Shown in pieces: positions 8,259 through 23,681 of a stretch of DNA of 64,000 nucleotides. Location: the NCBI RefSeq assembly GCF_002161675.1, contig NZ_NFIH01000002.1:62001-126000 (forward strand), read 5' to 3'. Below the pieces are notes generated by a model that was not told the origin of the DNA, made no database searches, and saw only the letters and a list, made by a program, of their open reading frames with translations. Both the position numbers and the translations under genes were made by a program. The stretch's first letter is position 1. Each line of letters starts with the position of its first letter. The DNA is from Pseudoflavonifractor sp. An44 (GTDB lineage Bacteria; Bacillota; Clostridia; Oscillospirales; Oscillospiraceae).

Positions 8259-8364
8259 GGTGAAAAGAACCCCCTTATTGGATATGAGCAGGGAAAAACC
8301 TTGGATTCCCCACTTCGTTCAGGAACAAAAAACGGCTATCATTTCAATGTCCCGTAATGATAGC

Positions 8365-9419: not shown

Positions 9420-9435
9420 ACTGTAACCTTGTTTA

Positions 9436-9464
9436 TTTTTATCACAAACTGGCGCGATTGTCAA
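9436..9464 (-). promoter_or_regulatory. Promoter of sigH
   Basis: A consensus TTGACA (9459-9464, minus strand) is followed after 17 bases by TAAAAA (9436-9441), about 15-20 bases before the sigH start. Confidence 0.6.
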
Positions 9465-9519
9465 TGATTTTTATGCAAAATCTAAAAAGCATCTGGAAAG
9501 GTTCTGGAAAACCTGGCAA

Positions 9520-11210: not shown

Positions 11211-11711
11211 TTAGGTATGGTTCATAGATCGAGATAGCAGCGAGGTGCAGCTGCGGGCATGGCACAGGGCGATGGCCACCGCATCGGCAGCGTCATCCGG
11301 CTTGGGTACACTGGCCAGGTGGAGTAACTTTCGGGTCATCTCCATCACCTGTCGTTTTTCCGCCTTGCCGTATCCCACCACGGCCTGCTTGACCTGGGAG
11401 GGATTGTATTCCACCACAGGCAGACCGCATTTCTCTGCGGTCATTAAAATCACCCCTCTGGCCTGGGCCACGCCGATGCCGGTGGTGACGTTTTGGTTGA
11501 AGAATAGCTCCTCGATGGCCAGAACCTCCGGGTGAAACTGCCCGATCAGTTCCTCCAGGTCTGTGGCGATTTGCCACAGTCGGGCGGGGAGTCGCACTCC
11601 TGCCGGGGTGTTGATGGCCCCGCAGGCCACCAGCTGCTGTCTACCAGGCTGGGAGTCGATGAGGCCAAATCCAACAATGGCATAGCCTGGGTCAATCCCC
11701 AATATCCGCAC
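11211..11711 (-). CDS. ruvC: Crossover junction endodeoxyribonuclease RuvC
   Basis: The 166-residue resolvase has the acidic catalytic residues in GIDPG (Asp7), AIEELFF and DDAADAVAIA, as expected for RuvC. It starts with GTG (11709-11711) behind GGGAGGGAG. It is the first gene of the ruvCAB operon and has a promoter just upstream. Confidence 0.96.
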   Translation of the reverse strand: MRILGIDPGYAIVGFGLIDSQPGRQQLVACGAINTPAGVRLPARLWQIATDLEELIGQFHPEVLAIEELFFNQNVTTGIGVAQARGVILMTAEKCGLPVVEYNPSQVKQAVVGYGKAEKRQVMEMTRKLLHLASVPKPDDAADAVAIALCHARSCTSLLSRSMNHT

Positions 11712-11750
11712 TCGGTTCTCCCTCCCCTGCTCTGAAAATTTACTCGAACT

Positions 11751-11779
11751 ATTGTATCATAATTTGCTACCAGCCGCAA
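11751..11779 (-). promoter_or_regulatory. Promoter of ruvCAB
   Basis: On the minus strand TTGCGG (11774-11779) and TACAAT (11751-11756) are 17 bases apart. Confidence 0.55.
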
Positions 11780-11810
11780 GGGAAAGGGAGTACCGGGTAC
11801 CCCGGACTTT

Positions 11811-12449
11811 TCAGCCTAAGGGGAGCATAGAGAGCAACTTTTGGCACAACCCCGGGAGAAGGAATGGGAGCAAATGCCCTTGAAGGAAGTAGGAGAGACC
11901 AAACAGGGCCCCACAGCAGACCAGCGCAGACCATGGAGGCAGGAGTTTGGCCGAGGACTCCTGGGGGATACATTTGCGCAGCGCATTGGTAAACGACCAC
12001 TTTGCCACATACAGGGTGAGAGGCAGCACCAAAATGGCGGAGATTCCAAAGAATAGAGCCCCCCATCCCAGACCAGAGAGGCCGAACATGGCTACAAAGC
12101 TGGAACAGGCATAGCTGAGGAGAAAGCACCGGATGAGGAGTACGCATGGTACCCCTACCACGCCGGGGGGCCCAAAACTCAGCAGCACCAACAGCAAGGG
12201 CCAGCAGAGAATGTCCCAAACGGTGGACCAGAAGGAGACGGAAGGAACTGTTCCCTGGGCCACCGACTGAAAATAGCTGGTCAATTGGTCGGAAAACTGG
12301 GGATGACGGCCCCCAAGCGCAGCAAAAATGCTGCCCAGCAGTACGCCCACCAGGCAGAATATGCATAGAAAGAAGAGCGGGCCTCTCTCCCGCCGTTTCC
12401 CCTGTCCCCGGGATGTTCGTGGCGAATATAGCCGCTTGGGATGCGTCAT
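11811..12449 (-). CDS. SpoIIM-like multi-pass membrane protein
   Basis: The 212-residue protein has a short basic N-terminus followed by about five hydrophobic segments. The layout, a first helix (FLCIFCLVGVLLGSIFAALG), an outside loop ending in FSDQLTSYFQSVAQG, and then paired helices around a glycine-rich stretch (FGPPGVVGVP), resembles SpoIIM, part of the peptidoglycan-degrading engulfment machinery. The match is by pattern and is not certain. The ATG at 12447-12449 has GAGGTGATG upstream. The SCIFF maturase terminator precedes it. Confidence 0.55.
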   Translation of the reverse strand: MTHPKRLYSPRTSRGQGKRRERGPLFFLCIFCLVGVLLGSIFAALGGRHPQFSDQLTSYFQSVAQGTVPSVSFWSTVWDILCWPLLLVLLSFGPPGVVGVPCVLLIRCFLLSYACSSFVAMFGLSGLGWGALFFGISAILVLPLTLYVAKWSFTNALRKCIPQESSAKLLPPWSALVCCGALFGLSYFLQGHLLPFLLPGLCQKLLSMLPLG

Positions 12450-12554: not shown

Positions 12555-13916
12555 TTAGACCATACCGGCACGGTGGGCCTTCATGGCGATGGCGCACTCC
12601 AGACGCTTGCGCTGCATGTCGCAGCCAAACCGATTGGGAATCATCATGTCCCCGTTGACCTCCAGATTGGAGGCGGAGCAGCCGCCGCTGCAATAGAAGC
12701 GGGCCCAGCAGTCCTTACAGTCAGGGCGGGTGTAGATGTTCAGCCCGGCAAACTTCCGGGAGATGTCCATGTCAAAGGTGTTGTCGTACACGTTGCCCAG
12801 CTTGTACTCTTCCTTGCCCACAAACTGGTGGCAGGGATAGATATCACCGTCGGGGGTGATGGCCACATACTCGCAGCCAGCGCCACAGCCACGCATGCGC
12901 TTGATGACACAGGGGCCCTGGGTGAGGTCTACGTTGAAGTGGAAGAAGTTGATGTCGTCCCGGTCCAGCAGCTCCCGGGCCAGGTTCTCGTACTCCTCCA
13001 GAATGCCGGGCAGGTCCTCCTCCTTGAAGGTGTAGTCATACTTGGCATCTCCCACCACAGGCTCCACAGACACATTGCGGAAGCCCTGGTCAGCGATGTG
13101 GATGACGTCCTGGGCAAAGTCCCGATTGTGACGGGTGAAGGTACCACGCAAGTAGTAGTCCTTGTCACCACGTCCAGCCACCAGCTTCTGGAACTTGGGG
13201 AGAATCACATCGTAGCTGCCCTTGCCGTTGACGGTGGGGCGCATGTTGTCGTTGACCTCGGGGCGGCCATCCAGAGAGAGCACGGCGTTGGACATGTTCT
13301 CGTTGATGTAATCGATGGTTTCATCGTCCAGCAGAATGCCATTGGTGGTGATGGTGAACCGGAAGTTCTTGTTGTGCTCCTTCTCCAGGGAACGGGCGTA
13401 GTCCACGGTGGCCTTGACGGTGTCCATGGCCATGAGGGGCTCGCCGCCGAAGAAGTCCACCTCGATGTTGTGGCGCTTGCCGGAGCGGGCGATGACAAAG
13501 TCAATGGCCTTCTTGGCGGTCTCCACATTCATGGTCATGCGGTGGCCGGTACCGAAGTCGCCGGTGGAGGCAAAGCAGTACTTGCAACGCAGGTTGCAGT
13601 CGTGGGAGACGTGGAGGCACAGGGCCTTGACGGGGGCATCCTTCTGCATGAGCACAGCGGCCTCAGGGTCGATGTAGGTATCGTCCGTGAAGAGGAGCCC
13701 CTGCTGCTGCAGCTGGTAGAGATCGTCCCAGGCGCAGTTGAGAGATTCCCGGTCGTACTGAGGCAACTTGGCAGCCACCTCGTCCGGGCAGTGCTCTGCC
13801 ATGGGGCCGTCCAGCAGGGACAGCAGGTCGTAAGCGGTCTGGTCCAGCACATGCACGGCACCGCTGTTCACATCCACCGCGATATTCGCATCCAAACAGT
13901 GAAAAGTATGTACCAT
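12555..13916 (-). CDS. SCIFF peptide maturase (radical SAM/SPASM thioether-forming enzyme)
   Basis: The 453-residue enzyme is a peptide-modifying radical SAM protein. An N-terminal peptide-binding region precedes the cluster motif CNLRCKYC near residue 108, the SAM-contacting FFGGEPL follows, and the C-terminal SPASM domain carries cysteines around GCGAGCEYVA, GDIYPCHQF and CKDCWARFYCSGGC. This is the TIGR03974/CteB family, which forms thioether cross-links in the partner SCIFF peptide. The partner gene lies immediately upstream (13991-14134). The ATG at 13914-13916 has GAAGGAGA upstream. A hairpin between the two genes may make the enzyme less abundant than the peptide. Confidence 0.93.
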   Translation of the reverse strand: MVHTFHCLDANIAVDVNSGAVHVLDQTAYDLLSLLDGPMAEHCPDEVAAKLPQYDRESLNCAWDDLYQLQQQGLLFTDDTYIDPEAAVLMQKDAPVKALCLHVSHDCNLRCKYCFASTGDFGTGHRMTMNVETAKKAIDFVIARSGKRHNIEVDFFGGEPLMAMDTVKATVDYARSLEKEHNKNFRFTITTNGILLDDETIDYINENMSNAVLSLDGRPEVNDNMRPTVNGKGSYDVILPKFQKLVAGRGDKDYYLRGTFTRHNRDFAQDVIHIADQGFRNVSVEPVVGDAKYDYTFKEEDLPGILEEYENLARELLDRDDINFFHFNVDLTQGPCVIKRMRGCGAGCEYVAITPDGDIYPCHQFVGKEEYKLGNVYDNTFDMDISRKFAGLNIYTRPDCKDCWARFYCSGGCSASNLEVNGDMMIPNRFGCDMQRKRLECAIAMKAHRAGMV

Positions 13917-13990: not shown

Positions 13991-14134
13991 TTAGTGATTG
14001 TTCTCACACTTCTGATTGGCGACAGTGCAGGAAGTCTTGCAAGCGGACTGGCAAGAGGTCTGGCACTCGCCACAGCCACCGTGAGCAGCGCTCTGCTTCA
14101 GAGTAGCACCGTTGAGAGTCTTGACGTGAGTCAT
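13991..14134 (-). CDS. SCIFF ribosomal peptide precursor (six cysteines in 45 residues)
   Basis: The 47-residue peptide starts MTHVKTLNGATLK, a conserved SCIFF leader. Its core contains six cysteines at 21, 24, 28, 32, 36 and 43. SCIFF peptides are near-universal in Clostridia and receive Cys-to-Thr-type thioether links from the adjacent radical SAM maturase. Their biological role is unknown. The ATG at 14132-14134 has GGAGGG at good distance. No export gene is seen next to the pair. Confidence 0.95.
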   Translation of the reverse strand: MTHVKTLNGATLKQSAAHGGCGECQTSCQSACKTSCTVANQKCENNH

Positions 14135-14165
14135 GGATATCCCTCCATTCAGCTTATTTAATGGC

Positions 14166-14194
14166 ATTGTACCACAGTTTTCACAGCATTTCAA
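14166..14194 (-). promoter_or_regulatory. Promoter of the SCIFF operon
   Basis: On the minus strand TTGAAA (14189-14194) and TACAAT (14166-14171) are 17 bases apart, about 30 bases before the peptide start. Confidence 0.6.
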
Positions 14195-14236
14195 TATGCA
14201 GTTTTTGCGGGTGGCTGTCAACCTGGGTGGGGATGG

Positions 14237-14244
14237 CATAGGAT
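14237..14244 (+). promoter_or_regulatory. Possible mother-cell (sigma-E/K-like) -10 box of the cotJ operon
   Basis: CATAGGAT resembles the CATAnnnT -10 element of sporulation sigma factors E and K, and it lies about 40 bases before the cotJ start. The upstream -35 candidate (an AC in GTCAACC) has non-ideal spacing, so this is only a suggestion. Confidence 0.25.
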
Positions 14245-14286
14245 GGTGTGGCATGTGATGCTAAAATGTTTGAGGAGGCCACTCTT

Positions 14287-14745
14287 TTGAATATGAACGA
14301 ACCCACCAACCGCCCCTGCGGTGACGGGATGGGGACACTCCCATCCTGCGCGCCCTTGGCGGTCCCCTATGTTCCGTTTCAGCAGAACGGGAGCCAGACC
14401 TATGCCCAGCAGGACGCTCTGGCCAACGGCACCCTGTTTCCCGGCCTGAATCTGCCCTTCCAGATCAACGCAGTGGCGGCCACTCCGCCCCAGACTGGGG
14501 CCTTGGAGCTCCAGGCCTTGAGTTTTGTCCTCACCGAGCTGGGCCTGTATCTGGACACCCATCCCCAGGACAAAGAGGCGTTCGACCTCTTCCGGGAGTA
14601 TGCCAAGCTGGCCAAGGAGGGCCGACGCCGTTACGAGGCCATGTATGGGCCACTCACCCAGCAGGCGGCGGCCAATCAGGACCAGTACACCTGGCTCAAT
14701 GATCCCTGGCCCTGGGAGTATCGTCAGGAAGGAGGAATGCGCTGA
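14287..14745 (+). CDS. CotJA-CotJB fusion, spore coat protein
   Basis: One frame of 152 codons holds both small CotJ proteins. The CotJA part comes first (AVPYVPFQ, then YAQQDALANGTLFPGLNLPF). The CotJB part follows (LQALSFVLTELGLYLDTHP, KEAFDLFREY, YGPLTQ and the family end WLNDPWPWE). In most spore formers these are separate genes, cotJA and cotJB, ahead of cotJC. The TTG at 14287 is the preferred start because GAGGAGG lies eight bases upstream. The ATG at 14293 is 14 bases away from it. The stop overlaps the cotJC start by one base, indicating coupling. The protein should sit in an inner coat layer with CotJC. Confidence 0.85.
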   Translation: MNMNEPTNRPCGDGMGTLPSCAPLAVPYVPFQQNGSQTYAQQDALANGTLFPGLNLPFQINAVAATPPQTGALELQALSFVLTELGLYLDTHPQDKEAFDLFREYAKLAKEGRRRYEAMYGPLTQQAAANQDQYTWLNDPWPWEYRQEGGMR

Positions 14746-14948
14746 TGTTTGTCTATGAGAAAAAGCTACAGTACCCCGTGCGCATCAAGAACACCAATCC
14801 CAAGCTGGCTGCCCTGATTATCAGTCAATACGGTGGCCCAGACGGCGAACTGGGTGCTTCCCTGCGCTATCTCAGCCAGCGGTATTCCATGCCATGGCCA
14901 GAGCTGAAAGGGCTACTCACCGATATCGGTACAGAAGGGTCAAAATGA
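14745..14948 (+). CDS. cotJC: cotJC 5' half (interrupted manganese-catalase-type coat protein)
   Basis: The frame starts MFVYEKKLQYPVRI and is the N-terminus of CotJC, a spore-coat member of the Mn-catalase family. Residues 1-61 (to 14927) are native and include the Mn ligand Glu35 in GGPDGELGA. After the crossover GG at 14928-14929 only a six-codon tail supplied by the inserted element follows before a TGA that lies inside the element's end repeat. The rest of the gene is at 22837-23259. GGAGGAATGCGCTG precedes the ATG, which overlaps the cotJA-cotJB stop. The truncated product lacks the second and later metal ligands and cannot be an enzyme. Confidence 0.93.
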   Translation: MFVYEKKLQYPVRIKNTNPKLAALIISQYGGPDGELGASLRYLSQRYSMPWPELKGLLTDIGTEGSK

Positions 14949-14952
14949 TACC
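14928..14952. repeat. attL core and P' arm
   Basis: The crossover dinucleotide GG (14928-14929) follows cotJC codon 61. The 23-base arm at 14930-14952, beginning TACAGAAGGGTCAAAATGA, is the inverted copy of the arm at 22814-22836 with one mismatch. The cotJC fragment's stop codon lies inside it. Confidence 0.85.
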
Positions 14953-14988
14953 ATGCAAGGTGCAGGTTCACACAGCCAGCCGAGGCAA

Positions 14989-15030
14989 TAAAAAAGACAC
15001 CACCGACCTTTGTCGATGGTGTCTTTTTTA
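14989..15030 (-). terminator. Terminator of tRNA-Pro
   Basis: A long stem (14990-15007 with 15012-15029, AAAAAAGACACCA and its complement) ends in a T run on the minus strand, directly after the tRNA. Confidence 0.9.
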
Positions 15031-15031
15031 T

Positions 15032-15108
15032 TGGTCCGAGTGACAGGACTTGAACCTGCGGCCTCTTGACCCCCAGTCAAGCGCGATACCAAACTTCGCC
15101 ACACCCGG
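15032..15108 (-). tRNA. tRNA-Pro(GGG)
   Basis: On the minus strand the acceptor arms CCGGGTG and CACTCGG pair (one G-T). The D arm is GCG/CGC-closed, and the anticodon stem CTTGA/TCAAG encloses the loop CTGGGGG, giving anticodon GGG. The T arm has TTCAAGT, and CCA is encoded. It decodes CCC/CCU proline codons. It lies inside the element, 80 bp from attL, with its own promoter and terminator. Host-gene attachment can be excluded because the att core is in cotJC, not in the tRNA. Confidence 0.95.
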
Positions 15109-15142
15109 ATGTTCAATTTTGCTCGGTCGATTGACCTTAGAT

Positions 15143-15171
15143 ATACTAGCATACGAGAAAGAAAAATGCAA
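15143..15171 (-). promoter_or_regulatory. Promoter of tRNA-Pro
   Basis: On the minus strand TTGCAT (15166-15171) and TAGTAT (15143-15148) are 17 bases apart, about 35 bases before the tRNA. Confidence 0.6.
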
Positions 15172-15209
15172 GAGGGAATTTGCGTTTTTTTGAAAAATTT
15201 TTTCGTCCA

Positions 15210-15239
15210 GGCGGCGGGGCTCAAAACTGCCCCGCCGCC
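15210..15239 (-). terminator. Terminator after the DUF218 gene
   Basis: An 11-bp GC stem GGCGGCGGGGC (15210-15220 with 15229-15239) is followed on the minus strand by TGGACGAAAAAATTTTTTC, so its T tract is displaced. Confidence 0.7.
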
Positions 15240-15246
15240 CCAGAGG

Positions 15247-15930
15247 TTAACCGTCGTTGGTCACATCTCCGTCTCCACTGACGGGGATGGCTTCGCCTAG
15301 ATAAGTAGGCTCAGGCTTCCAGATGGAGGTGAAGAAATCTTTGACCCGAGCCAGGACTTCCCGGGCATCTCTCTGCCACTGCCTTGCGTAGTCCTCCCCG
15401 TCGGCGGCGACTCCGTAGGCATCCAGCCCCAGCGCCTGGGCAATGTAGATGGCCCGATACAGGTGGTATTCCTGGGAGACAATGACCACCTTCTGGGCTT
15501 GGAAAATCTCCTTTGCCCGGTACATGCTCTCATAGGTGGAAAATCCGGCGTGGTCCATAAAGACGTCGGAGGACGGAACGCCGGCGGCCATGGCATACTG
15601 CTTCATGGCGTTCACTTCGTCATAGCCTTCCCGTCCGTGATCGCCGCTCATCAGCAGTTTCGGAGCAACATTCAGTTCATAGAGCTCCACGCTCCGCTCC
15701 AGACGATCCGCCAGCATGAGACTGGGGGTGCCATCGGCCTTGACGCCGCAGCCCAGTACCAGAATGCAGTCCACACCGGTCAGTTCTGCGGCCTGCTCTG
15801 CGGTGAGGATTCGCTCCCCTCCCACATGGGTGACCCGTGCGTTAATGGCAAATACGGACACAATGCCCAGCACCGTGCACGCCAGCACAATGCAGGTAAA
15901 AATCTTGGTGATACGCAGCAAGAGTTTCAT
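15247..15930 (-). CDS. DUF218/SanA-YdcF family membrane-anchored protein
   Basis: The 227-residue protein has one N-terminal membrane helix (about residues 8-30) and a DUF218 domain outside it: CILVLGCGVKADGTPSLMLADRLER, LLMSGDHG, the EVNAMKQYA helix and IVSQEYHLYRA. Relatives include SanA and YdcF, linked to envelope integrity, and the catalytic function is not established. It lies in the element, transcribed toward attL. A promoter-like TGGACA-17-TACACT lies at 15966-15994, so it is probably expressed separately from the recombinase operon. Confidence 0.85.
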   Translation of the reverse strand: MKLLLRITKIFTCIVLACTVLGIVSVFAINARVTHVGGERILTAEQAAELTGVDCILVLGCGVKADGTPSLMLADRLERSVELYELNVAPKLLMSGDHGREGYDEVNAMKQYAMAAGVPSSDVFMDHAGFSTYESMYRAKEIFQAQKVVIVSQEYHLYRAIYIAQALGLDAYGVAADGEDYARQWQRDAREVLARVKDFFTSIWKPEPTYLGEAIPVSGDGDVTNDG

Positions 15931-15965
15931 TGGGGAATCTTCCCCCTTTCTGTATAGGTAGCCAC

Positions 15966-15994
15966 AGTGTATCTCATTTGGTTACCGTTGTCCA
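15966..15994 (-). promoter_or_regulatory. Promoter of the DUF218 gene
   Basis: On the minus strand TGGACA (15989-15994) and TACACT (15966-15971) are 17 bases apart. Confidence 0.45.
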
Positions 15995-16049
15995 GAAACA
16001 AATTGTGAATAAAAGCAGCGATAAGACATAGCTTACCGCCGCTGTTCAA

Positions 16050-16532
16050 TCATAAAGTATGGTGTTGTTCCAGGGATAGAAGAAATCGCTTTAGTTCTAT
16101 CCCTCCGGCGTAACCGCCCAAAGAGCCGTCTGCTCCAATGACTCGGTGGCAAGGCACCACCAGCATCATGGGATTTCGGTGGTTGGCCATGCCTACAGCC
16201 CGGCAGGCTTTGGGCTGGCCAATTTCTGCGGCGATATCCCGGTAACTGCGTGTCTGGCCGTATGGAATGCGGCATAGAGCCTGCCAGACCCGCTCCTGAA
16301 ACGGGGTGCCGTGAAGAATGTGCGGAATGTCAAAGACCTTGCGTTTACCCTGAAAGTATTCCTCCATTTGGCTGGCCAGTTGCCGGGTCAGCGGTGTGGG
16401 GGTGCCATAGTCCAGAACAGGACCTTGCACAGCGGAGATAGAGACGATACAGTCCCCCACCTGCTCCACTCGAAACGAGCCACAAGGGAAGGTGTATACA
16501 GAGAAAATCTCCGTTGCTTCCCTCTTACTCAT
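16050..16532 (-). CDS. ogt: Methylated-DNA-protein-cysteine S-methyltransferase
   Basis: The 160-residue suicide enzyme removes methyl groups from O6-methylguanine onto its cysteine. The active-site PCHRVI lies near residue 127, preceded by the helix-turn-helix segment (ERVWQALCRIPYGQTRSYRDIA) and the AVGMANHRNP arginine finger region. The ATG at 16530-16532 overlaps the end of the preceding NifX-like gene by eight bases, so translation is likely coupled. No adjacent ribosome site is obvious. It is one of two alkylation-repair functions in the element, the other being AlkD. Confidence 0.93.
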   Translation of the reverse strand: MSKREATEIFSVYTFPCGSFRVEQVGDCIVSISAVQGPVLDYGTPTPLTRQLASQMEEYFQGKRKVFDIPHILHGTPFQERVWQALCRIPYGQTRSYRDIAAEIGQPKACRAVGMANHRNPMMLVVPCHRVIGADGSLGGYAGGIELKRFLLSLEQHHTL

Positions 16533-16941
16533 GGGAGCAGTGGCCTCCGTGGCCATGACCACCACAGCCATGGTCGCCACAGGTGTGGTCATGGTGATGG
16601 TGCTCCCCATGATGGCTGCACTTGACATCGGGGTTGTAGTTCAAGGTCTGGGCCAACAGTGCCTCTACTGCCTGATCGGCTTCACCAGAGACGCCGCCGT
16701 AGAGCTGAATGTTGGCGTTGGACAAGGCATTTTGAGCGCCTCCGCCGATGCCGCCGCAGATGACGGCATCCACATGCAGGTCGCCGAGGAATCCGGCCAG
16801 GGCTCCATGCCCGCTGCCGTTGGTGTCCACGATCTGGGTGCTCGCCACGGCTCCATCTACGATGTCGTATACTTTGAATTGCTTGGTGTGTCCGAAATGC
16901 TGATAAATCTGCCCGTTGTCATAGGTAACTGCAATTCTCAT
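16525..16941 (-). CDS. NifX/NifB-type dinitrogenase cofactor-like protein with a His-rich tail
   Basis: The 138-residue protein has the dinitrogenase iron-molybdenum cofactor fold (MRIAVTYDNGQIYQHFGHTKQFKVYDI, then AVICGGIGGGAQNAL). It ends in a tail of about 30 residues dominated by His, Cys and Gly (for example HHGEHHHHDH). The fold family binds metal-sulfur cofactors or acts as a small scaffold, and the tail suggests metal binding. No nitrogenase genes are near, so a nitrogen-fixation role is unlikely. The ATG at 16939-16941 has GAGAGGAG upstream. It is followed by overlapping ogt. Confidence 0.85.
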   Translation of the reverse strand: MRIAVTYDNGQIYQHFGHTKQFKVYDIVDGAVASTQIVDTNGSGHGALAGFLGDLHVDAVICGGIGGGAQNALSNANIQLYGGVSGEADQAVEALLAQTLNYNPDVKCSHHGEHHHHDHTCGDHGCGGHGHGGHCSHE

Positions 16942-16975
16942 GATAAAAACTCCTCTCAGTGTTTGGTATATAGAT

Positions 16976-17659
16976 TTATTTAACTCGTAGAGAGCGCAAA
17001 AATGTCTTTTGTTCCGGGTCAATGCGAAAACTCTCCGTGGCCTTCTGGATGGTCTTGTTGTGAATCCAGGGGGAGAGCCGATGTTGGGTGAGATAGGGCA
17101 AGGCGGCATCCCATTGCTTCACTAGGGCCTCTGCAAAGTACCACGCCACCATCATTTGGACATAGTAGTCCTCTGCTCTCACCTCTGCGGCCCAATCCAG
17201 GTACTCTGGTGAAAAATAGCTATCCAGGTAGAAACGCAACAGAACGCCCAGGCCAAAGCGCACGGTATAGGTGTGGTGGGATTGCATCCAGGTCCACGCC
17301 TGGCGAGGCAAGGCCTCCGGGTGTTTTCCAAAGGCCTTGGGGCTGAGCAAATCACAGGTGGCCCAGTTGTCCACATAGGGGAGAAAACGGTTCAGGGCCT
17401 CTACGGTCTCCTCATATCCCTTGTACTCACACAGCAACAAGCCGTGGAGGTTGTTTTCCTCGTAGTAGGTGTGGGGGAGCTGGTTGAGAAAGTGTTCCGC
17501 CTCAGGAGTGCCCCGCAATTGCTTTGCCAGTCGGCGGAGATCGGGCATGCGTACGCCGATGACCACGTCTGGGCTGACCGTGGGCATGAGTTTACACTGA
17601 AACTTCTGATAGGTCAAATCTTGCAGGGCGAACAGGCGCTGCACAATGGGAGTGTCCAC
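16976..17659 (-). CDS. AlkD-like 3-methyladenine DNA glycosylase (internal start)
   Basis: A GTG at 17657-17659 is preceded by AAAAGGAGGGGGTACC, a strong ribosome site within the recombinase frame. It would give a 227-residue protein, the normal length of AlkD-family enzymes, beginning VDTPIVQRLFALQDLTYQKF. Family features are KLMPTVSPDVVIGVRMPDLR, WATCDLL and the HEAT-like helical repeats. AlkD proteins excise bulky or cationic alkylated bases. No stop codon separates it from the recombinase, so it may be produced alone, as a fusion, or both. Confidence 0.8.
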   Translation of the reverse strand: MDTPIVQRLFALQDLTYQKFQCKLMPTVSPDVVIGVRMPDLRRLAKQLRGTPEAEHFLNQLPHTYYEENNLHGLLLCEYKGYEETVEALNRFLPYVDNWATCDLLSPKAFGKHPEALPRQAWTWMQSHHTYTVRFGLGVLLRFYLDSYFSPEYLDWAAEVRAEDYYVQMMVAWYFAEALVKQWDAALPYLTQHRLSPWIHNKTIQKATESFRIDPEQKTFLRSLRVK

Positions 17660-19180
17660 GGTACCCCCTCCTTTTCTGAGGATACCATTAGTATAGTCTT
17701 TTTCCTGCCCACTGGCAAGCGGAGCTCCATCTCGAAATCGGAACTTCATTGGGAGATGAGATAGCTTTAGTTCCACAATCCGTTGGGGGCAGACTGTGAT
17801 GCTCTCCACCAGCAGCTTACATAGGGCGTCGCTGGCCTCTGGGTGTTGGAGGATATGCTCCATTGCCTCCTCTGGGATGATATCTGGCGAAGGTGCCTGC
17901 AACCGCTGTTCCAGGCTGGTGAGTTTTCGGTCATACGTCTCTTTCATGAGGGCCAGTTCCTCCTTGGTGATATGCCCGGAGGCGTAGGCGTCCAGAAGAA
18001 CGGCTTTCCGGTCCAAGATGCGCAATTGTTCCCGCTCTATCTGTTCCCTGTTGGGGCTCTCTCCATGGAGCAGATGAGCGATGGAGGTACGTAGGCTGGA
18101 AGGACTCAACTCCAGAGCAAATAGGGCTTGACGGAACATCTGCCTGGCGTCATCGTCCCGGAGAATGCGGGCAACCTTACACCCTCCACGGACAGATGAG
18201 GCGCAGCTCCACCGGAGAATGACCCTTCCGTCCGGGAGCTTGCGCCGCCGAGCTACGAAGGTGGCGCCACATATCCCGCATTTGATCTTACCAGACAGGG
18301 CATAATGCACGGAACGGCTGCGAGGGGTGTGCTTGCTGCGCTGCTTTAATTCCTGCTGTACGGTATTCCACAGCTCTCGGGAGATGATGGGAACGTGATG
18401 GTCCGTCAGGGTGATCATCGGCTCTTCTCCGTGGTTTTGCCGTTTTGCATGGCTGAGATAATCGGGAGTATAGGTCTTTTTTTGTACCAGGTCTCCTACA
18501 TACTTTTCATTTTTTAACAGCTTCACCAGGTAGCTGCTGCTCCAATGGGAGTTCCCAGAACAGGTGCGCACGCCCTCCTGCTCCAGCATCCGGGCGATTT
18601 GTGTGGTGCCCAATTTTTCCGCCCCATACAGGTGGAAAATACGCTGCACCAGACGGGCTCCCTCTGGGTTGATGGAGAGTACCCCATCTTTCACATCGTA
18701 CCCCAGCATGGACCGCCCGAATACCACCCCCCGCTCCATCTGCCGGGTCTGTCCCCATTTCACCCGGGCTGAGGTCCTTCGGCTCTCCTCCTGGGCAATG
18801 GAGGCCATAATGGACAGCCGTAGCTCTGCGTCCGGGTCCATGGTGTTGATGCCGTCGGTGAGAAAGAGAACCGAGACCCCCAGGGCCTTGAGTTTCCTGG
18901 TATAGGCGATGGTGTCCAACAGATTTCGGGAAAAACGGCTGACTTCCTTGGTGAGAATGATGCGAAATTTCCCGTCCTGGGCGTCCTGAATCATCCGCTG
19001 AAAGGCTGCCCGCCGTTTGGTGCTGGTGCCTGTGATACCCTCGTCGGCATAGATGCGATACAGCTCCCACTTGGGGTGCTGGCGGATGTACTGGGAGAAG
19101 TAGCGCTGCTGAGCGGCAAAGGAGTTTGCCTGGTCCTCCTTGTCCGTGGAGACCCGGCAATAGCTGGCCACGGAAATCAT
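16976..19180 (-). CDS. Large serine recombinase read through in frame into an AlkD-like domain
   Basis: This single 734-codon frame starts with a serine-recombinase catalytic domain (SYCRVSTDKEDQ with Ser11, and KEVSRFSRN). The recombinase domain (LGYDVKDGVLSINPEGARLVQRIF, then KNEKYVGDLVQKKTY) and a zinc ribbon (CGICG, later C and C in WSCASSVRGGC) follow, then a coiled segment to about residue 490. It continues without a stop into a complete AlkD-type DNA alkylation repair domain (from about residue 508). It is the only recombinase in the element, so it presumably performs integration and excision at GG in cotJC. The ATG overlaps the upstream small gene by four bases. The second part may also be made separately (see 16976-17659). 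Confidence 0.9.
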   Translation of the reverse strand: MISVASYCRVSTDKEDQANSFAAQQRYFSQYIRQHPKWELYRIYADEGITGTSTKRRAAFQRMIQDAQDGKFRIILTKEVSRFSRNLLDTIAYTRKLKALGVSVLFLTDGINTMDPDAELRLSIMASIAQEESRRTSARVKWGQTRQMERGVVFGRSMLGYDVKDGVLSINPEGARLVQRIFHLYGAEKLGTTQIARMLEQEGVRTCSGNSHWSSSYLVKLLKNEKYVGDLVQKKTYTPDYLSHAKRQNHGEEPMITLTDHHVPIISRELWNTVQQELKQRSKHTPRSRSVHYALSGKIKCGICGATFVARRRKLPDGRVILRWSCASSVRGGCKVARILRDDDARQMFRQALFALELSPSSLRTSIAHLLHGESPNREQIEREQLRILDRKAVLLDAYASGHITKEELALMKETYDRKLTSLEQRLQAPSPDIIPEEAMEHILQHPEASDALCKLLVESITVCPQRIVELKLSHLPMKFRFRDGAPLASGQEKDYTNGILRKGGGTVDTPIVQRLFALQDLTYQKFQCKLMPTVSPDVVIGVRMPDLRRLAKQLRGTPEAEHFLNQLPHTYYEENNLHGLLLCEYKGYEETVEALNRFLPYVDNWATCDLLSPKAFGKHPEALPRQAWTWMQSHHTYTVRFGLGVLLRFYLDSYFSPEYLDWAAEVRAEDYYVQMMVAWYFAEALVKQWDAALPYLTQHRLSPWIHNKTIQKATESFRIDPEQKTFLRSLRVK

Positions 19181-19362
19181 AGCCGTTTGCCCTTCTCTAG
19201 CTGCTCTAAGGCCAGGTCTATCTGCTCCCGCTCCAATATCCCTTGTTCGCCTAGGGCCAGAAGTAGACTGGTACGGAGTAGCTGAAAAAATTCCGGGTCT
19301 GTCTCCGGTGAGACAGGGCGGGCATCTTGGATTTCATACAGGGTTGCAAATCTGGGCTTCAT
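19177..19362 (-). CDS. Small protein upstream of and overlapping the recombinase; candidate directionality factor
   Basis: The 61-residue acidic/helical protein (MKPRFATLYEIQDARPV, ending LEREQIDLALEQLEKGKRL) has no family that I recognise. The end has a SHOCT-like rhythm. The ATG at 19360-19362 has GGAGGGGAGA upstream. Its stop overlaps the recombinase start (ATGA), so the two are translated together. Large serine recombinases need a small accessory protein for excision, and this is the only candidate next to the recombinase. That role is inferred from position only. Confidence 0.75.
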   Translation of the reverse strand: MKPRFATLYEIQDARPVSPETDPEFFQLLRTSLLLALGEQGILEREQIDLALEQLEKGKRL

Positions 19363-19420
19363 GTGTCTCCCCTCCTCCCTCTTGGCTTCATGTATACGGA
19401 GACGGGTGGGCAAAAATCCC

Positions 19421-19449
19421 TTGACAACTATCTACTTCAAGTGTAGTAT
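19421..19449 (+). promoter_or_regulatory. Promoter of the blaI-blaR1 operon
   Basis: TTGACA (19421-19426) and TAGTAT (19444-19449) are 17 bases apart. On the other strand a TATACT box (19445-19450) with a weak -35 box could start leftward transcription toward the recombinase, so both directions may share control. Confidence 0.65.
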
Positions 19450-19474
19450 ATAATTAACTACTACATATGAAGTT
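19433..19474. promoter_or_regulatory. Two BlaI/MecI-type operators
   Basis: TACTTCAAGTGTAGTA (19433-19448) and TACTACATATGAAGTT (19459-19474) are imperfect dyads of the TACTACA-NN-TGTAGTA type bound by MecI/BlaI repressors. The first overlaps the -10 box of the blaI promoter. They fit autorepression by the adjacent BlaI. Confidence 0.75.
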
Positions 19475-19483
19475 GGTGATACC

Positions 19484-19858
19484 ATGAAGCATTTGCCAGA
19501 CAGCGAGCTGGAAGTGATGAAGGCCCTGTGGGCCTGCGGAGGTGATGCCTCCCGGGCGCAGCTGGAGGAGACCTTGGCGCCCCTGGGGTTGGCCTCCAAC
19601 ACGGTGAACACGTACCTGACCCGTTTGACGGAAAAGGGGTTTGTCAGTGCCAGACGGGACGGAAAGCTCAACCGCTACACGCCTCTGGTGAGTCGGGAGG
19701 AGTACCTCACCTTTGACAGCCATTCCATTCTCTCCAAGCTGTATGATGGCTCTCCCCGCAAATTTGTGGCCGCACTGGCCAAGGGGGGGATGACGAAACA
19801 GGAGGTGGAGGACCTCCGGTCGCTCCTGGACCAATTGGGTGGAGGGGACCATGGATGA
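19484..19858 (+). CDS. BlaI/MecI/CopY-family repressor
   Basis: The 124-residue winged-helix repressor (LPDSELEVMKALWACGGDASRAQL, then SNTVNTYLTRLTEKGFV) has the family N-terminal DNA-binding domain and a C-terminal dimerisation helix pair. Such repressors are inactivated by proteolysis triggered by a BlaR1-type partner. That partner is encoded next, overlapping by eight bases. The operators just upstream indicate autorepression. The ATG at 19484 fits the family start. Confidence 0.92.
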   Translation: MKHLPDSELEVMKALWACGGDASRAQLEETLAPLGLASNTVNTYLTRLTEKGFVSARRDGKLNRYTPLVSREEYLTFDSHSILSKLYDGSPRKFVAALAKGGMTKQEVEDLRSLLDQLGGGDHG

Positions 19859-20687
19859 GTGTTTGATGGATCTATTTGCCCTGTCCCTGGGGGGCGGCGT
19901 GGTGGCGCTGGTCCTCATGGGGGTGGCACGGCTCACCCGGGCCAGATATGGAGCCAAATGGCGGTGTGTGATTTGGGCGCTGCTGTGTCTGCGCCTGATC
20001 ATTTTGGTGCCCTCGGTACCCCAGGTCCAAGCCCCGGTTCAGATGACCGTGCCCCAGATAGACCGCCCAGTGGCGGTATCCGCTGCCCCATCAGTTACTC
20101 CGGATGAGGGAACCTCTTCCCCACTGCGTCCCGATGAAAAGGAAGAAGCGCCAGCAATTACCTTGTCTCACATCGTAGGTGGGGTGTGGCTGTTAGGCAT
20201 GTGCGGGGTTCTCGTATGGAGCGGGGTGGCCCACATGAGGCTACGCCGCTATCTGAGACGCTGGGCGGTAGTGGAGACACGGGAAGAGGTGTGTTGCCGA
20301 TATGCGGCACAGGCCCAGCGGCTGAATCTTAAGCGTGTACCTAAGTTATTGGCGTGCCCCGGGCTGGAGGTACCTATGTTGACGGGACTGGTGTCCCCTG
20401 CCCTGATGTTACCACAGGACGCATCACCAGAGGACGGATTGGACTATGCCCTGCTTCACGAGCTGATTCACTACCGCCGCAGAGATATCTGGCTGAAAGC
20501 GCTGGTGATGCTGACAGTTTCGGTGCACTGGTTCAATCCGGTGATGTGGCTGATGGTGCGTCAGGTGGACCGAGACATTGAACTGGCCTGTGACGAGATG
20601 GCACTGACCGTTCTGCCGGAAGAGGAGCGTCTGGCTTATGGGGAGACCATCCTCCAGGCGGCAGCCAGAGTCCATCGGCAAACATGA
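19851..20687 (+). CDS. BlaR1/MecR1-type M56 membrane metalloprotease, lacking the C-terminal sensor
   Basis: The 278-residue protein has N-terminal membrane helices and an M56 peptidase core with the zinc motif HELIHYRRRDIW near residue 203 and the later zinc ligand segment DIELACDEMAL. It stops at AYGETILQAAARVHRQT, the point where BlaR1 proteins continue into another membrane helix and an extracellular sensor. That missing piece resembles the N-termini of the two lipoprotein-like genes downstream. The partner repressor precedes it. The signal sensed is unknown, and no beta-lactamase is present. Confidence 0.88.
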   Translation: MDECLMDLFALSLGGGVVALVLMGVARLTRARYGAKWRCVIWALLCLRLIILVPSVPQVQAPVQMTVPQIDRPVAVSAAPSVTPDEGTSSPLRPDEKEEAPAITLSHIVGGVWLLGMCGVLVWSGVAHMRLRRYLRRWAVVETREEVCCRYAAQAQRLNLKRVPKLLACPGLEVPMLTGLVSPALMLPQDASPEDGLDYALLHELIHYRRRDIWLKALVMLTVSVHWFNPVMWLMVRQVDRDIELACDEMALTVLPEEERLAYGETILQAAARVHRQT

Positions 20688-20702
20688 TGGGAGGGATGGG
20701 AG

Positions 20703-21404
20703 ATGCACAAGAGAAAAAACCGGGTGATGATCCTGGCAAGTGTAGGAGTTTTGGTGTTGGCTGTGGTCTGGGTGTTGCAATATTACGGTATTTTGCCCAA
20801 GCGGACCTACTCCTCCCAGCACTTCGGCATTGACGTGGTGTATAGCTCCCAGGACTATAACCTCAACGGCGTGGATGACTACACGGATTTTCTGCTGGGC
20901 GCCAAGCAAGACGCAGAGAACCACCCCACCTATGACGGCACATACTATGCTGGCGGTTATCCACCGGAGGACATAGGGGTGTGTACCGATGTGGTTTGGA
21001 GGGCGTTCCGGCAGGCGGGCTATTCCTTGCGGGATATGGTGGACCAGGACGTGCGACAATACCCGGACCGCTATCCAGACATCCAATACCGGGATGCCAA
21101 CATTGATTTTCGCAGAGTGAAAAATCTATGGGCTTTCTTCCAGGCCTACGCCCTGGAGTTGACCTGTGATATCACGGATATTGACCAGTGGCAGCCCGGC
21201 GACATTGTGATCTTCAACGAGGGCAAACACATCGGGGTGGTGTCCGATCTGCGCAACCGCAGCGGACAACCCTATATTCTGCACAATGCAGGTCAATTTC
21301 GACGGGAAGAGGATTATCTGGGGCGGTCTCCAGTGGAGGCTCACTTTCGTTTTGACGCTTCTTGTGTGCCCCAAGAGGTTCTGGTGGCCTGGGGCGGTGT
21401 GTGA
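20703..21404 (+). CDS. DUF1287 secreted/membrane-anchored protein
   Basis: The 233-residue protein has one N-terminal membrane helix and a DUF1287 domain with the NlpC/P60-like cysteine segment GVCTDVVWRAFRQAGYSL and later QPGDIVIFNEGKHIGVVSD, where the histidine belongs to the presumed Cys-His pair. It is probably a cell-surface cysteine hydrolase or amidase; the substrate is not known. It lies 16 bp after the BlaR1-like gene, in the same operon. Confidence 0.85.
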   Translation: MHKRKNRVMILASVGVLVLAVVWVLQYYGILPKRTYSSQHFGIDVVYSSQDYNLNGVDDYTDFLLGAKQDAENHPTYDGTYYAGGYPPEDIGVCTDVVWRAFRQAGYSLRDMVDQDVRQYPDRYPDIQYRDANIDFRRVKNLWAFFQAYALELTCDITDIDQWQPGDIVIFNEGKHIGVVSDLRNRSGQPYILHNAGQFRREEDYLGRSPVEAHFRFDASCVPQEVLVAWGGV

Positions 21405-21419
21405 AAGGAGTTTGAAGCT

Positions 21420-22082
21420 ATGAAGAGAAACAAGCATCCGGTTCCACCTCATTCTCCCTTTACCACGCCCTTTTCTCCAACGGCACAGGAGATGGGATTG
21501 CGTCTGCGCAGTCTGTTCCAGTGGAAGAAGAAACGGCCTCCCCTGGCGGTGCTGGGCCTGGTGTGTGCTGGAGTGGTGCTCAGCGGCTCTCTGGTCTCCT
21601 GCCAAACTGCCGCTGTGGATGACTCGCCTCCTCTGGCAACGGACTCTGTGCCAGAGAGGACCGAGAAGCCGCAAGCTTCGGTGATGCCAGAGGAGACGGA
21701 ACAGACTTCGGAGGTACCCGACCTCAATTTCTTCTTTGGCGGCGGTTGGGGCGGTCTTTCCTGGGAGGAGCTGCTGAACAGTGGGGCGCGGTTTAATGGA
21801 AGCAGTCTATTGAATCCCGATGAGATCGCTCTGGACTATTCCATCCTCAACGGAAGCTTTACTCACACCATGCGCTTGCAGTCCGGCGATGTGTTAGATG
21901 TGGCGCTGCAGGTGGATGAAGGGATCTTGGGGATCGCCATTGAAGGGGGCAACGGCACCCCGCTCTACCAGAATGACAATCTAGATACCTCTCAATTCCA
22001 TCTGGAGATTTCTCAAACCGATTCCTATCAAGTCACCATCACCGGGAGTAATACCAAGGGAAGCATTCATTTGAAGGTCTGA
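21420..22082 (+). CDS. Lipoprotein-like protein 1, with a BlaR1-tail-like N-terminus
   Basis: The 220-residue protein begins with a basic segment (SPFTTPFSPTAQEMGLRLRSL, WKKKRPP) followed by one hydrophobic helix ending LSGSLVSCQ, which could be a lipobox. The region from residue 95 onward is beta-rich with no family that I recognise. The pattern of a basic loop plus helix matches the segment after the peptidase domain in BlaR1-type proteins. It may therefore be a detached sensor module. It is 38% alike by eye to the next gene only at the N-terminus. Confidence 0.7.
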   Translation: MKRNKHPVPPHSPFTTPFSPTAQEMGLRLRSLFQWKKKRPPLAVLGLVCAGVVLSGSLVSCQTAAVDDSPPLATDSVPERTEKPQASVMPEETEQTSEVPDLNFFFGGGWGGLSWEELLNSGARFNGSSLLNPDEIALDYSILNGSFTHTMRLQSGDVLDVALQVDEGILGIAIEGGNGTPLYQNDNLDTSQFHLEISQTDSYQVTITGSNTKGSIHLKV

Positions 22083-22100
22083 TGGGAAAGGAGAATTGCT

Positions 22101-22814
22101 ATGAAATCGTTTCGACCGACTCTGCCTCGTTCGCCTTTTACCACGGCGTTTTCCCGGACGGCTCGTGAGACGGGAATTCGCATTCTCAACCTGTTTGAGT
22201 GGAAGCGGAGACGTCCGCCCACGTTCCTTCTGTTGCTGATATGTGGAGCTGTGTTGCTGTGCGGGTCTCTGGTGTCCTGCCGACCGAAAGAGGCTACGCA
22301 TTCTCTGACCCAGGAGGAACTGGACTATTTCAATCAGGAGTTCTTCAACGGAAGCACCGGGAATATGCACAATCAATTTCTAACCAGTGAGTATACCTCC
22401 CCCGGTGAAATCAATCTATTTGAGCTGTTTTACAACGGGATAGACGGAACGGCTGCCCAGATCTCCCAGGGGGAGCGGGAGCAACTGAGTGAACTGGAAC
22501 CCATGACAGAGTACAGCGGTGTTATCAAGGTGACCAGGCAGGAGATGGACCAGGTGCTGGAGGCAGGTCTAGGCATGGGCCTGACGGAGACCCAGCAGCA
22601 GGGACTGGAACGGTTCCACTACCTGGAGCAACCGAACGCCTATTATCTGGTGCACGGAGATACCAACTTCCAATGGTGTACCATTACCTCCGGCACCCAT
22701 ATCTCGGACCAGCAGGTGCAGTTGCAATACACCAAGGATGACGGTACGGCATGGGAGGTTACCTTGGAGTCCCGGGGGGACAGCTATGTGTTCTGTTCCA
22801 ATGTGAAAAGATAG
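22101..22814 (+). CDS. Lipoprotein-like protein 2, paralogue of the preceding gene
   Basis: The 237-residue protein repeats the same N-terminal module (RSPFTTAFSRTARETGIRILNLFEWKRRRPP, shown only by its ends: RSPFTT and EWKRRRPP), then a hydrophobic helix ending CGSLVSCRP. The exterior part is not recognised. The stop TAG (22812-22814) touches the attR arm, so the gene ends exactly at the element edge. Together with the preceding gene it suggests duplicated sensors working with the BlaR1-like protease. Confidence 0.7.
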   Translation: MKSFRPTLPRSPFTTAFSRTARETGIRILNLFEWKRRRPPTFLLLLICGAVLLCGSLVSCRPKEATHSLTQEELDYFNQEFFNGSTGNMHNQFLTSEYTSPGEINLFELFYNGIDGTAAQISQGEREQLSELEPMTEYSGVIKVTRQEMDQVLEAGLGMGLTETQQQGLERFHYLEQPNAYYLVHGDTNFQWCTITSGTHISDQQVQLQYTKDDGTAWEVTLESRGDSYVFCSNVKR

Positions 22815-22838
22815 GTGTCATTTTGACCCTTCTGTAGG
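22814..22838. repeat. attR P arm and core
   Basis: The 23-base arm at 22814-22836, ending GTCATTTTGACCCTTCTGTA, is the inverted copy of 14930-14952 with one mismatch. The crossover GG (22837-22838) then begins the Gly codon of the 3' half of cotJC. Confidence 0.85.
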
Positions 22839-23259
22839 GACAGAGGAACTGGGACATCTGGAGATGATCGGCACCATTGTCCATCAGCTCACCCGAAACC
22901 TCACCCAGGAGCAGCTGCGGGAAGGCGGCTTTGCCCCCTACTTCATCGACCACACTGCCAGCGTCTATCCTACGGCCGCCTCCGGTTCCCCCTGGAATGC
23001 CGCCGGGATTGGGGTGAAGGGCGATATCATCGCAGACCTCACCGAGGACCTGGCCGCGGAGCAGAAGGCCCGTGTGACCTATGACAACATCCTGCGTATG
23101 TCGGATGACCCCGACGTCAACGATGTCATCCGTTTTCTGCGGGAGCGGGAGATCGTCCACTTCCAGCGCTTTGGCGAGGCCATTTACCGGGCCAAGGAGC
23201 GGATGGACCAGAAAAATGTCTATCTCACCAACCCCGCCTTCGATCAAAAGAGATCATAA
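22837..23259 (+). CDS. cotJC: cotJC 3' half
   Basis: This 140-residue continuation (GTEELGHLEMIG onward) is the rest of CotJC. It holds the Mn ligands Glu and His in TEELGH and the later Glu/His in AAEQKAR and REIVHFQRF. It has no start codon with a ribosome site of its own at the expected place and is open from the crossover to the TAA. Joined to codons 1-61 at 14745-14927 it gives a 201-residue CotJC, the normal family length. Its undamaged state argues that the joined gene is used. Confidence 0.93.
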   Translation, partial: GTEELGHLEMIGTIVHQLTRNLTQEQLREGGFAPYFIDHTASVYPTAASGSPWNAAGIGVKGDIIADLTEDLAAEQKARVTYDNILRMSDDPDVNDVIRFLREREIVHFQRFGEAIYRAKERMDQKNVYLTNPAFDQKRS

Positions 23260-23267
23260 GCGTAAAC

Positions 23268-23301
23268 TTGGGCCCGTTGCCAGATGCGGCAACGGGCCCA
23301 A
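23268..23301 (+). terminator. Terminator after cotJC
   Basis: A 14-bp perfect stem TTGGGCCCGTTGCC (23268-23281 with 23288-23301) is followed by TGATGTTTTTTTG. It also serves the convergent VOC gene. Confidence 0.9.
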
Positions 23302-23315
23302 TGATGTTTTTTTGT

Positions 23316-23681
23316 TTACTTTTCGGGGACGATCTCAATCCAGTACCCATCGGGGTCGGTGATAAAGTAAATTCCCATGTCGGGGTTCTCGTAACAGATG
23401 CATCCCATCTCCTGGTGCCGGGCGTGGAGGCCCTCGTAGTCGTCGGTGACAAAGGCCAGGTGAAACTCGCACTCGCCCAGGTTGTAGGCTTCCGCGCGGT
23501 CCCGCAGCCAAGTCAACTCCAGCTGGAACGGGGTCTTGCCGTCACCCAGATATACCAGTTTAAAAGAATCGTCCTCCGGGACGTATTCCCGCACGACCTC
23601 CAGGTCCAGGGCATTTTGGTAGAAGGTCAGGCTCTTCTCCAGGTCCAGAACGTTAAAATTGAAGTGCTGAAAATGAATCAT
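23316..23681 (-). CDS. VOC-family (glyoxalase I-like) protein
   Basis: The 121-residue protein has two paired beta-alpha-beta-beta-beta modules of the vicinal-oxygen-chelate family (NFNVLDLEKSLTFYQNALDL, then HLAFVTDDYEGLHARHQEMG and YFITDPDGYWIEIV). The metal-ligand pattern His-Glu-His-Glu resembles lactoylglutathione lyase, so methylglyoxal detoxification is possible, but many VOC proteins do other jobs. Its promoter is at 23718-23746. Confidence 0.85.
   Translation of the reverse strand: MIHFQHFNFNVLDLEKSLTFYQNALDLEVVREYVPEDDSFKLVYLGDGKTPFQLELTWLRDRAEAYNLGECEFHLAFVTDDYEGLHARHQEMGCICYENPDMGIYFITDPDGYWIEIVPEK

Follow-up and report, generated by a model that had tools for sequence, protein, structure and literature searches.

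The split cotJC gene of Pseudoflavonifractor sp. An44

In Pseudoflavonifractor sp. An44 the gene cotJC, which we take from its family name to be a spore-coat gene, is split by a 7.9-kilobase (kb) element that runs from 14930 to 22838 of the window. The window is the whole stretch of 64,000 nucleotides analysed here (contig NZ_NFIH01000002.1, positions 62,001 to 126,000); all coordinates refer to it, and + and - denote its strands. Directly 5' of cotJC lies a fused cotJA-cotJB open reading frame (ORF) of 165 residues (14248..14745, +), which matches CotJB with an expect value (E) of 1.7e-27 and CotJA with E 7.8e-13. The 5' part of cotJC, codons 1 to 61 (14745..14927, +), matches positions 1-65 of the Mn_catalase profile PF05067 (E 1.3e-19), and the 3' part, codons 62 to 201 and the stop (22837..23259, +), matches positions 64-200 (E 1.3e-31); both are above the PF05067 cut-off. 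The 5' part closes on ...LLTDI, after which letters of the element append GTEGSK and a stop, so that the ORF ends at 14948. The 3' part opens with GGG ACA GAG GAA CTG GGA CAT (GTEELGHLEM), and the first ATG, GTG or TTG in its frame is an internal ATG at 22864 (Met70). Neither half alone can therefore encode Glu65 and His68 in a translated product, and the idea that the halves are separate proteins was rejected, since no start codon precedes Met70 in the frame of the 3' part.

Joined, the two parts encode a protein of 201 residues in which the GE, EExxH, AEQ and HFQRF motifs are all present. By its domain and its metal-ligand motifs, the predicted joined protein is a member of the CotJC / Mn catalase family, and a structure comparison of an unbroken CotJC orthologue with solved Mn catalases gave a best E of 4.6e-29. 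A PF05067 profile search of the host's own genome (2.75 megabases, 51 contigs, listed as 100% complete) returned no match besides the two parts, and so no second intact cotJC was found there. A preliminary description of this DNA had placed the break after codon 61, between halves at 14745-14927 and 22837-23259, had read the joined halves as a normal 201-residue CotJC with Glu35, Glu65 and His68, and had noted that the 3' half has no start of its own. The sequence and the PF05067 matches agree with it in each respect, including the residue numbers in the joined protein, and the second cotJC that it had named beforehand as evidence to the contrary is not found.

The ends of the element

The element is bounded by a pair of terminal inverted repeats, the left at 14930..14952 (+) and the right at 22814..22836 (+), which pair at 22 of 23 nucleotides. 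Within 14001-23500, pairing of at least 20/23 is reached only by these terminal repeats (in several registers) and by a single local hairpin. Just outside the repeats lie two copies of GG, at 14928..14929 (+) in the left attachment site, attL, and at 22837..22838 (+) in the right one, attR, where they are also bases 1-2 of codon 62. Symmetric arms, together with the empty site in a relative (genome G009), mark these dinucleotides as the probable crossover, although the exact exchange point is inferred. When the ends are joined as they would be in a circle, the resulting site is symmetric around GG at 22/23 positions; the rebuilt host site is asymmetric (9/23). Serine integrases usually have a symmetric phage-type site, attP, according to passages of PMC5595907.

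The two copies of GG are directly oriented, so recombination between the ends would lead to excision; inversion was rejected for this reason. The ends should permit precise, in-frame rebuilding of cotJC. The scar-free restoration put forward in the preliminary description is borne out to the extent that, on paper, the halves join in frame at GG, and the corresponding empty site is seen in G009.

Interruptions recur at three codon positions

Thirty-five of 42 genomes of the genus have a PF05067 match. Judged from the match ranges and their edges, the gene is unbroken in 12 of these, has both flanks of a break in 20 and one flank in one (G037), and is unclear in two (G026, G028). The 12 unbroken genes supply the comparison with intact relatives that had been suggested for this locus. 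Breaks in the genus fall at three positions only: after codon 61 (site A, 12 genomes), after about codon 31 (site B, three genomes: G019, G021, G033) and after about codon 135 (site C, nine genomes). G013, which has an odd right edge, and G033, which may be cut a few codons later, are both counted under site A. G033 is broken at all three sites, so that its cotJC lies in four pieces. In the cotJC tree G010, whose gene is split, is the sister of G009, whose gene is unbroken, and the two represent the filled and the empty site. SpoIVA was found in 41 of the 42 genomes.

The same positions are used throughout the family. A PF05067 match was found in 339 of 398 sampled genomes, and 113 genomes outside the genus, chosen by eye for their weak best matches, were listed again. 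Both flanks were present in 85 of the 113, at site A in 44, site B in 28 and site C in 23; nine are broken at two or more sites, and G386, like G033, has cotJC in four pieces. In the other 28 there is a single flank, a break elsewhere in the gene or a match resembling some other protein. Together with eight genus members of the sample, at least 93 of the 339 genomes are split at these positions. For 48 pairs of pieces, both members lie in collinear order on the same contig, 3.0-41 kb apart, and two genomes consist of a single contig (G138, site A, 3.1 kb; G352, site C, 12.8 kb), which excludes contig-end artefacts there. A class-wide search gave a match in 193 of 293 genomes; many have two or more weak matches, which were not counted as splits.

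Selection on the halves and inheritance of the element

Both halves could be extracted at 26 of 33 site-A loci (at the other seven the search pattern found no pair, and these were left out), and at all 26 the frame is uninterrupted from the start to the junction and again from there to the stop. The pattern itself requires both edge motifs, so this is evidence of open frames on both sides and no independent test of phase. AEQ is present at 25 of the 26 loci and an exact HFQRF at 21, and the 3'-half frameshifts named in the preliminary description as counter-evidence do not occur at any of them. The edges also join in frame in 9/9 genus pairs at site C and in 2/3 at site B (in G019 the left edge was not found).

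Across eight genus species the median ratio of nonsynonymous to synonymous substitution rates (dN/dS) is 0.034 for the 5' halves and 0.084 for the 3' halves, compared with 0.087 (5') and 0.084 (3') for the 12 unbroken genes; 26 of 28 pairs were computable in the eight-species set, and synonymous changes are near saturation. The cotJC tree groups G000, G015, G002, G017 and G004 with support of 100/100, and the recombinase tree recovers the same five, also with 100/100, and the same division of G000 and G015 from the other three. Their elements have cargo in common; in G002 the side from BlaI to the lipoprotein-like genes was not found, and BlaI is thus absent from what was seen there. Given the shared cargo and the agreeing trees, the element was most likely present in the common ancestor of the five and inherited from it. 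The remaining recombinases of the genus group with recombinases from other genera, which points to separate gains.

Within the clade of five, purifying selection on the start-less 3' half is strong, with a median dN/dS of 0.022 and a maximum of 0.027 (10/10 pairs). Since this clade inherited the element, selection acted while cotJC was split. The joined gene is thus probably used, as had been proposed from the undamaged state of the halves.

The recombinase and its association with site A

The recombinase of the element is a 734-residue ORF (16976..19180, -) in which Resolvase, Recombinase, Zn_ribbon_recom and, at the C terminus, an AlkD-like DNA_alkylation domain all score above their Pfam cut-offs. 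By its Resolvase, Recombinase and zinc-ribbon domains it is classed as a large serine recombinase, in keeping with the element type first proposed. Residues Y7, C8, R9, V10 and S11 of the active-site motif are invariant in 23 relatives, and relatives align to structures of SPbeta YokA (E 1.4e-31). Recombinase and AlkD-like gene share one frame in the window and are separate genes in the nearest relative, G015, and in others.

Among the 12 genus genomes with a break at site A, 10 have a recombinase like that of the window in the fetched stretches. Eight of these recombinases are full length and show 46-90% identity to that of the window; for recombinases near sites B and C this identity does not exceed 31%. 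In the family, 24 loci were chosen by eye from the best recombinase matches; a cotJC piece lies in the fetched stretch at 17 and in none of the other seven. Among the best 80 of at least 589 species-level loci, a site-A cotJC flank is present at 55 and absent at 25, and both flanks are present at 24 of the 55. The 55 include Pseudoflavonifractor phocaeensis An507 (5' part), Lactonifactor longoviformis DSM 17459 (both parts), Ruminiclostridium papyrosolvens C7, Eubacterium sp. 14-2 and records labelled Lachnospiraceae. Most of the site-A elements examined carry one recombinase clade.

In 7 of 23 site-A elements (loci L082, L111, L114, L117, L118, L125 and L126), the recombinase frame crosses attL into the antisense strand of cotJC, so that the C terminus would change on excision. 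In the viral database IMG/VR, a cotJC piece was found at three of the best 80 loci. At two of these (L221, L222) the piece is short and comes from the middle of the gene (about codon 28-30 to 66-69); on its far side lies another recombinase, different from the first.

A candidate directionality factor, regulators and cargo

Upstream of the recombinase, and overlapping its start by 4 nucleotides, is an ORF of 61 residues (19177..19362, -). ORFs of 52-74 residues are found no more than about 80 nucleotides upstream in 17 of 23 site-A recombinases, 10 of the 17 with the same 4-nucleotide overlap; a 35-residue ORF of G010 was excluded from the alignment of these 17, which align weakly among themselves. 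AlphaFold predicts a helical hairpin for the 61-residue protein, with a mean predicted local distance difference test score of 84.5. By its position, this ORF is the best candidate for a recombination directionality factor.

The recombinase operon is transcribed divergently from genes for a BlaI-type repressor (19484..19858, +; PF03965, E 9.2e-26) and an M56 (BlaR1-type) membrane protease (19839..20687, +; PF05569, E 3.8e-44). The region between blaI and the operon (19363..19483) contains two dyad boxes, probable BlaI operators, which an alignment of five species shows to be kept while the rest of the region varies. From this arrangement, the repressor may be one of the controls on the recombinase, although its gene was not found in the element of G002.

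The remaining genes are considered cargo, as are those for the BlaI and M56 proteins. To the left of the recombinase are a terminator-like hairpin with flanking A/T runs (14986..15033; 22-nucleotide arms, 95% paired), a tRNA-Pro (GGG) detected by ARAGORN (15032..15108, -), of which contig C48 has an identical copy, a DUF218 (SanA/YdcF-like) protein (15247..15930, -; PF02698, E 1.9e-26), a methylguanine-DNA methyltransferase-like protein (16050..16628, -; PF01035, E 3.6e-36) and a Nitro_FeMo-Co domain protein (16525..17109, -; PF02579, E 3.6e-19 over residues 64-152), whose true start is probably internal. To the right are a DUF1287 protein (20703..21404, +; PF06940, E 1.7e-50) and two lipoprotein-like ORFs that match neither Pfam nor NCBIfam: one so called by its appearance only (21420..22082, +) and a second (22101..22814, +) that partly resembles it, a cross-similarity seen in relatives. 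A tRNA-Pro (GGG) is carried by the cotJC elements of G002, G004, G015, G017 and G019 as well.

Ten proteins of the window were searched against PHROGs. Three gave matches (an integrase, a DNA methyltransferase-type protein and a regulator), and none matched a phage structural family. A phage origin of the element was rejected on this ground, and the element has no recognised phage structural gene of the kind that defines the prophage-like subclass. Cargo differs from one site-A element to another, as judged from a scan of ten proteins: an aldose epimerase in G005, a pyrimidine nucleoside phosphorylase in G138, HypA and HypB-type proteins in G010, and lactate permease, amino-acid-kinase and PucR types in G017.

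Proposed excision and alternative explanations

The element is located inside the coding region of cotJC, encodes what its domains indicate to be its own large serine recombinase, and has ends that could restore the gene, and so it would belong with the elements that intervene in sporulation genes. We consider it likely that it is a non-phage, site-specific cassette resembling gin and skin that is excised when CotJC is needed. In this scheme, the recombinase would integrate the cassette by recombining a symmetric attP centred on GG with a host site, attB, at codons 61-64 of cotJC. The same recombinase, probably together with a directionality factor for which the 61-residue ORF is the candidate, would then cut the cassette out exactly and leave an intact, scar-free cotJC. 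If this took place in the mother cell during sporulation, CotJC would become available while the spore genome retained the cassette, as described for skin and gin. We infer the mother-cell timing from two considerations: the product is a coat protein, and excision in the germline would tend to lose the element. The recurrence of breaks at a few points with intact halves suggests that these are probably cassettes snipped out at spore formation.

Several observations weigh against this proposal. The recombinase has a strong match to a phage integrase family (PHROG 95, E 9.9e-120), and sharing one ORF with an AlkD-like domain might impair it. Comparison of the 61-residue ORF with solved structures gave no significant fold match. 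A search for sigma-E and sigma-K promoters returned only loose matches, none convincing and none used, and one degenerate attP pattern, run against IMG/VR viral contigs for the circle junction, had 0 exact matches. The clade is not the sole occupant of site A, as the fetched stretches contained only distant recombinases in G033 and none in G013. Finally, locus L200 has a complete second cotJC-like ORF inside the element, between the pieces (about 6843-7068, 7578-8313 and 11395-11869); with an unbroken copy of this kind, not every split need be repaired by excision.

An assembly artefact or misbinning of contigs might be suspected, because many of the genomes are metagenome-assembled and many pieces lie on different contigs. 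The two one-contig genomes, the 48 same-contig pairs, the restriction of breaks to three positions and the presence of split genes in the named isolates P. phocaeensis An507 (5' part) and L. longoviformis DSM 17459 (both parts) make this a negligible prospect. A more serious alternative is that the element is a parasite in a safe harbour: it occupies a gene dispensable for growth and rarely moves, and the host lives without CotJC. Insertion into a gene used only in sporulation would cost growing cells nothing, and three of the eight species in the dN/dS comparison (G005, G010 and G014) probably gained the element separately, so that in them conservation could predate insertion. However, the clade of five, which inherited the element, keeps the 3' half at the low dN/dS given above and in open frames, and we regard this alternative as improbable.

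Alternatively, excision could be a population-level switch that occurs in some cells at any time, through phase variation or ordinary mobility, with no restriction to the mother cell. Nothing in the data ties excision to sporulation, the BlaI/M56 pair could answer another signal, and passages of PMC10747680 report that the element in yabG is excised at all growth stages. On the other hand, the target is a coat gene, and excision in the germline would tend to lose an element that has nevertheless been kept through the divergence of five species. A switch of this kind is in our view unlikely, if somewhat less so than the safe harbour, and programmed excision in sporulating mother cells remains the preferred explanation.

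A broader proposal, which we make tentatively and at somewhat less than even odds, is that spore-forming Clostridia have in cotJC a permanent landing gene. The sites by the metal-site motifs, three in number, would be used by different serine recombinases, so that the gene comes in two, three or four pieces, and the mother cell would carry out up to three precise excisions. The cargo, ordinary genes of metabolism and repair, would be lost by the dying mother cell and kept by the spore, which would make a division of gene content between germline and soma routine in gut bacteria.

Relation to known elements

The named targets of such elements include sigK, spsM, spoVFB, spoVR, gerE and yabG, as given in passages of PMC5595907, PMC10747680 and PMC4191935. 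The closest published analogue appears to be gin, in gerE of Bacillus cereus ATCC10987, which like the cotJC element is non-phage, splits a short sporulation gene and encodes its own serine recombinase; gin is excised by that enzyme with a second factor (passages of PMC5595907), a role for which the 61-residue ORF is the candidate here. As described there, gin is 28.6 kb, has three recombinase genes and has been demonstrated by experiment; the cotJC element is 7.9 kb, has one recombinase and is known from its DNA. In skin (sigK) and SPbeta (spsM), a serine-recombinase element likewise splits a sporulation gene, and the joined gene is restored, as is proposed for cotJC (passages of PMC4191935; skin of C. 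difficile is the subject of PMC5025042). These two are prophages or prophage-like (passages of PMC4191935), whereas no recognised phage structural gene is found in the cotJC element, which makes gin the closer analogue. The analogy with skin and SPbeta in the preliminary description therefore holds for an element that splits a sporulation gene and gives way to gin for the nature of the element. The yin element of Clostridium botulinum is again a serine-recombinase element in a coat-related clostridial sporulation gene, yabG, but passages of PMC10747680 describe it as a prophage unique to one strain, whereas splitting of cotJC recurs in many genera.

The Ccr recombinases of the staphylococcal cassette chromosome (SCC) are a further point of comparison. 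CcrB is the best NCBIfam match of the window recombinase, and both systems have non-phage cargo; the match scores 130.5 bits against a curated cut-off of 900, which leaves the recombinase outside the SCC Ccr family. SCC is not known to interrupt the gene in which it inserts.

No report of an interrupted cotJC was found in the open-licence text of PubMed Central, a scope that lies outside most subscription papers, preprints and supplements, and the word cotJC is absent from the main text of PMC5595907, PMC10747680 and PMC4191935. A passage of PMC11222575 places the phi027 prophage of Clostridioides difficile next to a CotJC-like gene. Within this scope, cotJC as a target, three fixed sites in one gene and a gene in up to four pieces appear to be new, as do a recombinase clade apparently tied to one codon across Clostridia and the predicted metabolic cargo of the elements examined.

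Only a few genes are known to be rearranged during sporulation. In the present case, roughly one in four (at least 93/339) of the sampled family genomes that hold a single coat gene have it interrupted, at fixed codons and with conserved halves, in cultured isolates and metagenome assemblies alike. It can thereby be tested whether programmed excision is a widespread part of sporulation in gut Clostridia, and annotators should be cautious of calling cotJC broken or absent. The findings also raise the question of why one small gene draws several recombinase clades, and they provide a large natural set of recombinases with one target site in common.

Other recombinase loci in the same genome

Two sigK-like matches in the An44 genome cover most of the model in open frames and score below the curated cut-off; thus, no skin-like split was seen, and no sigK is firmly named. 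Three serine recombinase genes are arranged in tandem at 20203-23814 of contig C16 (L137). On contig C24 (L136) there is a second split gene, with parts at 13213-13755 (-) and about 9147-9545 (-). It encodes a conserved cysteine-rich protein that has no Pfam or NCBIfam match. The break lies near residue 155, and the intervening element, about 3.6 kb long, carries a NagB-type gene and another large serine recombinase. The left edge is present in seven genus genomes (G000, G015, G017, G004, G019, G002 and G001), the 3' part was seen only in G000, and the gene is unbroken there in nine of the relatives listed. The presence of a second conserved split gene in the same genome suggests that other genes may be involved too.

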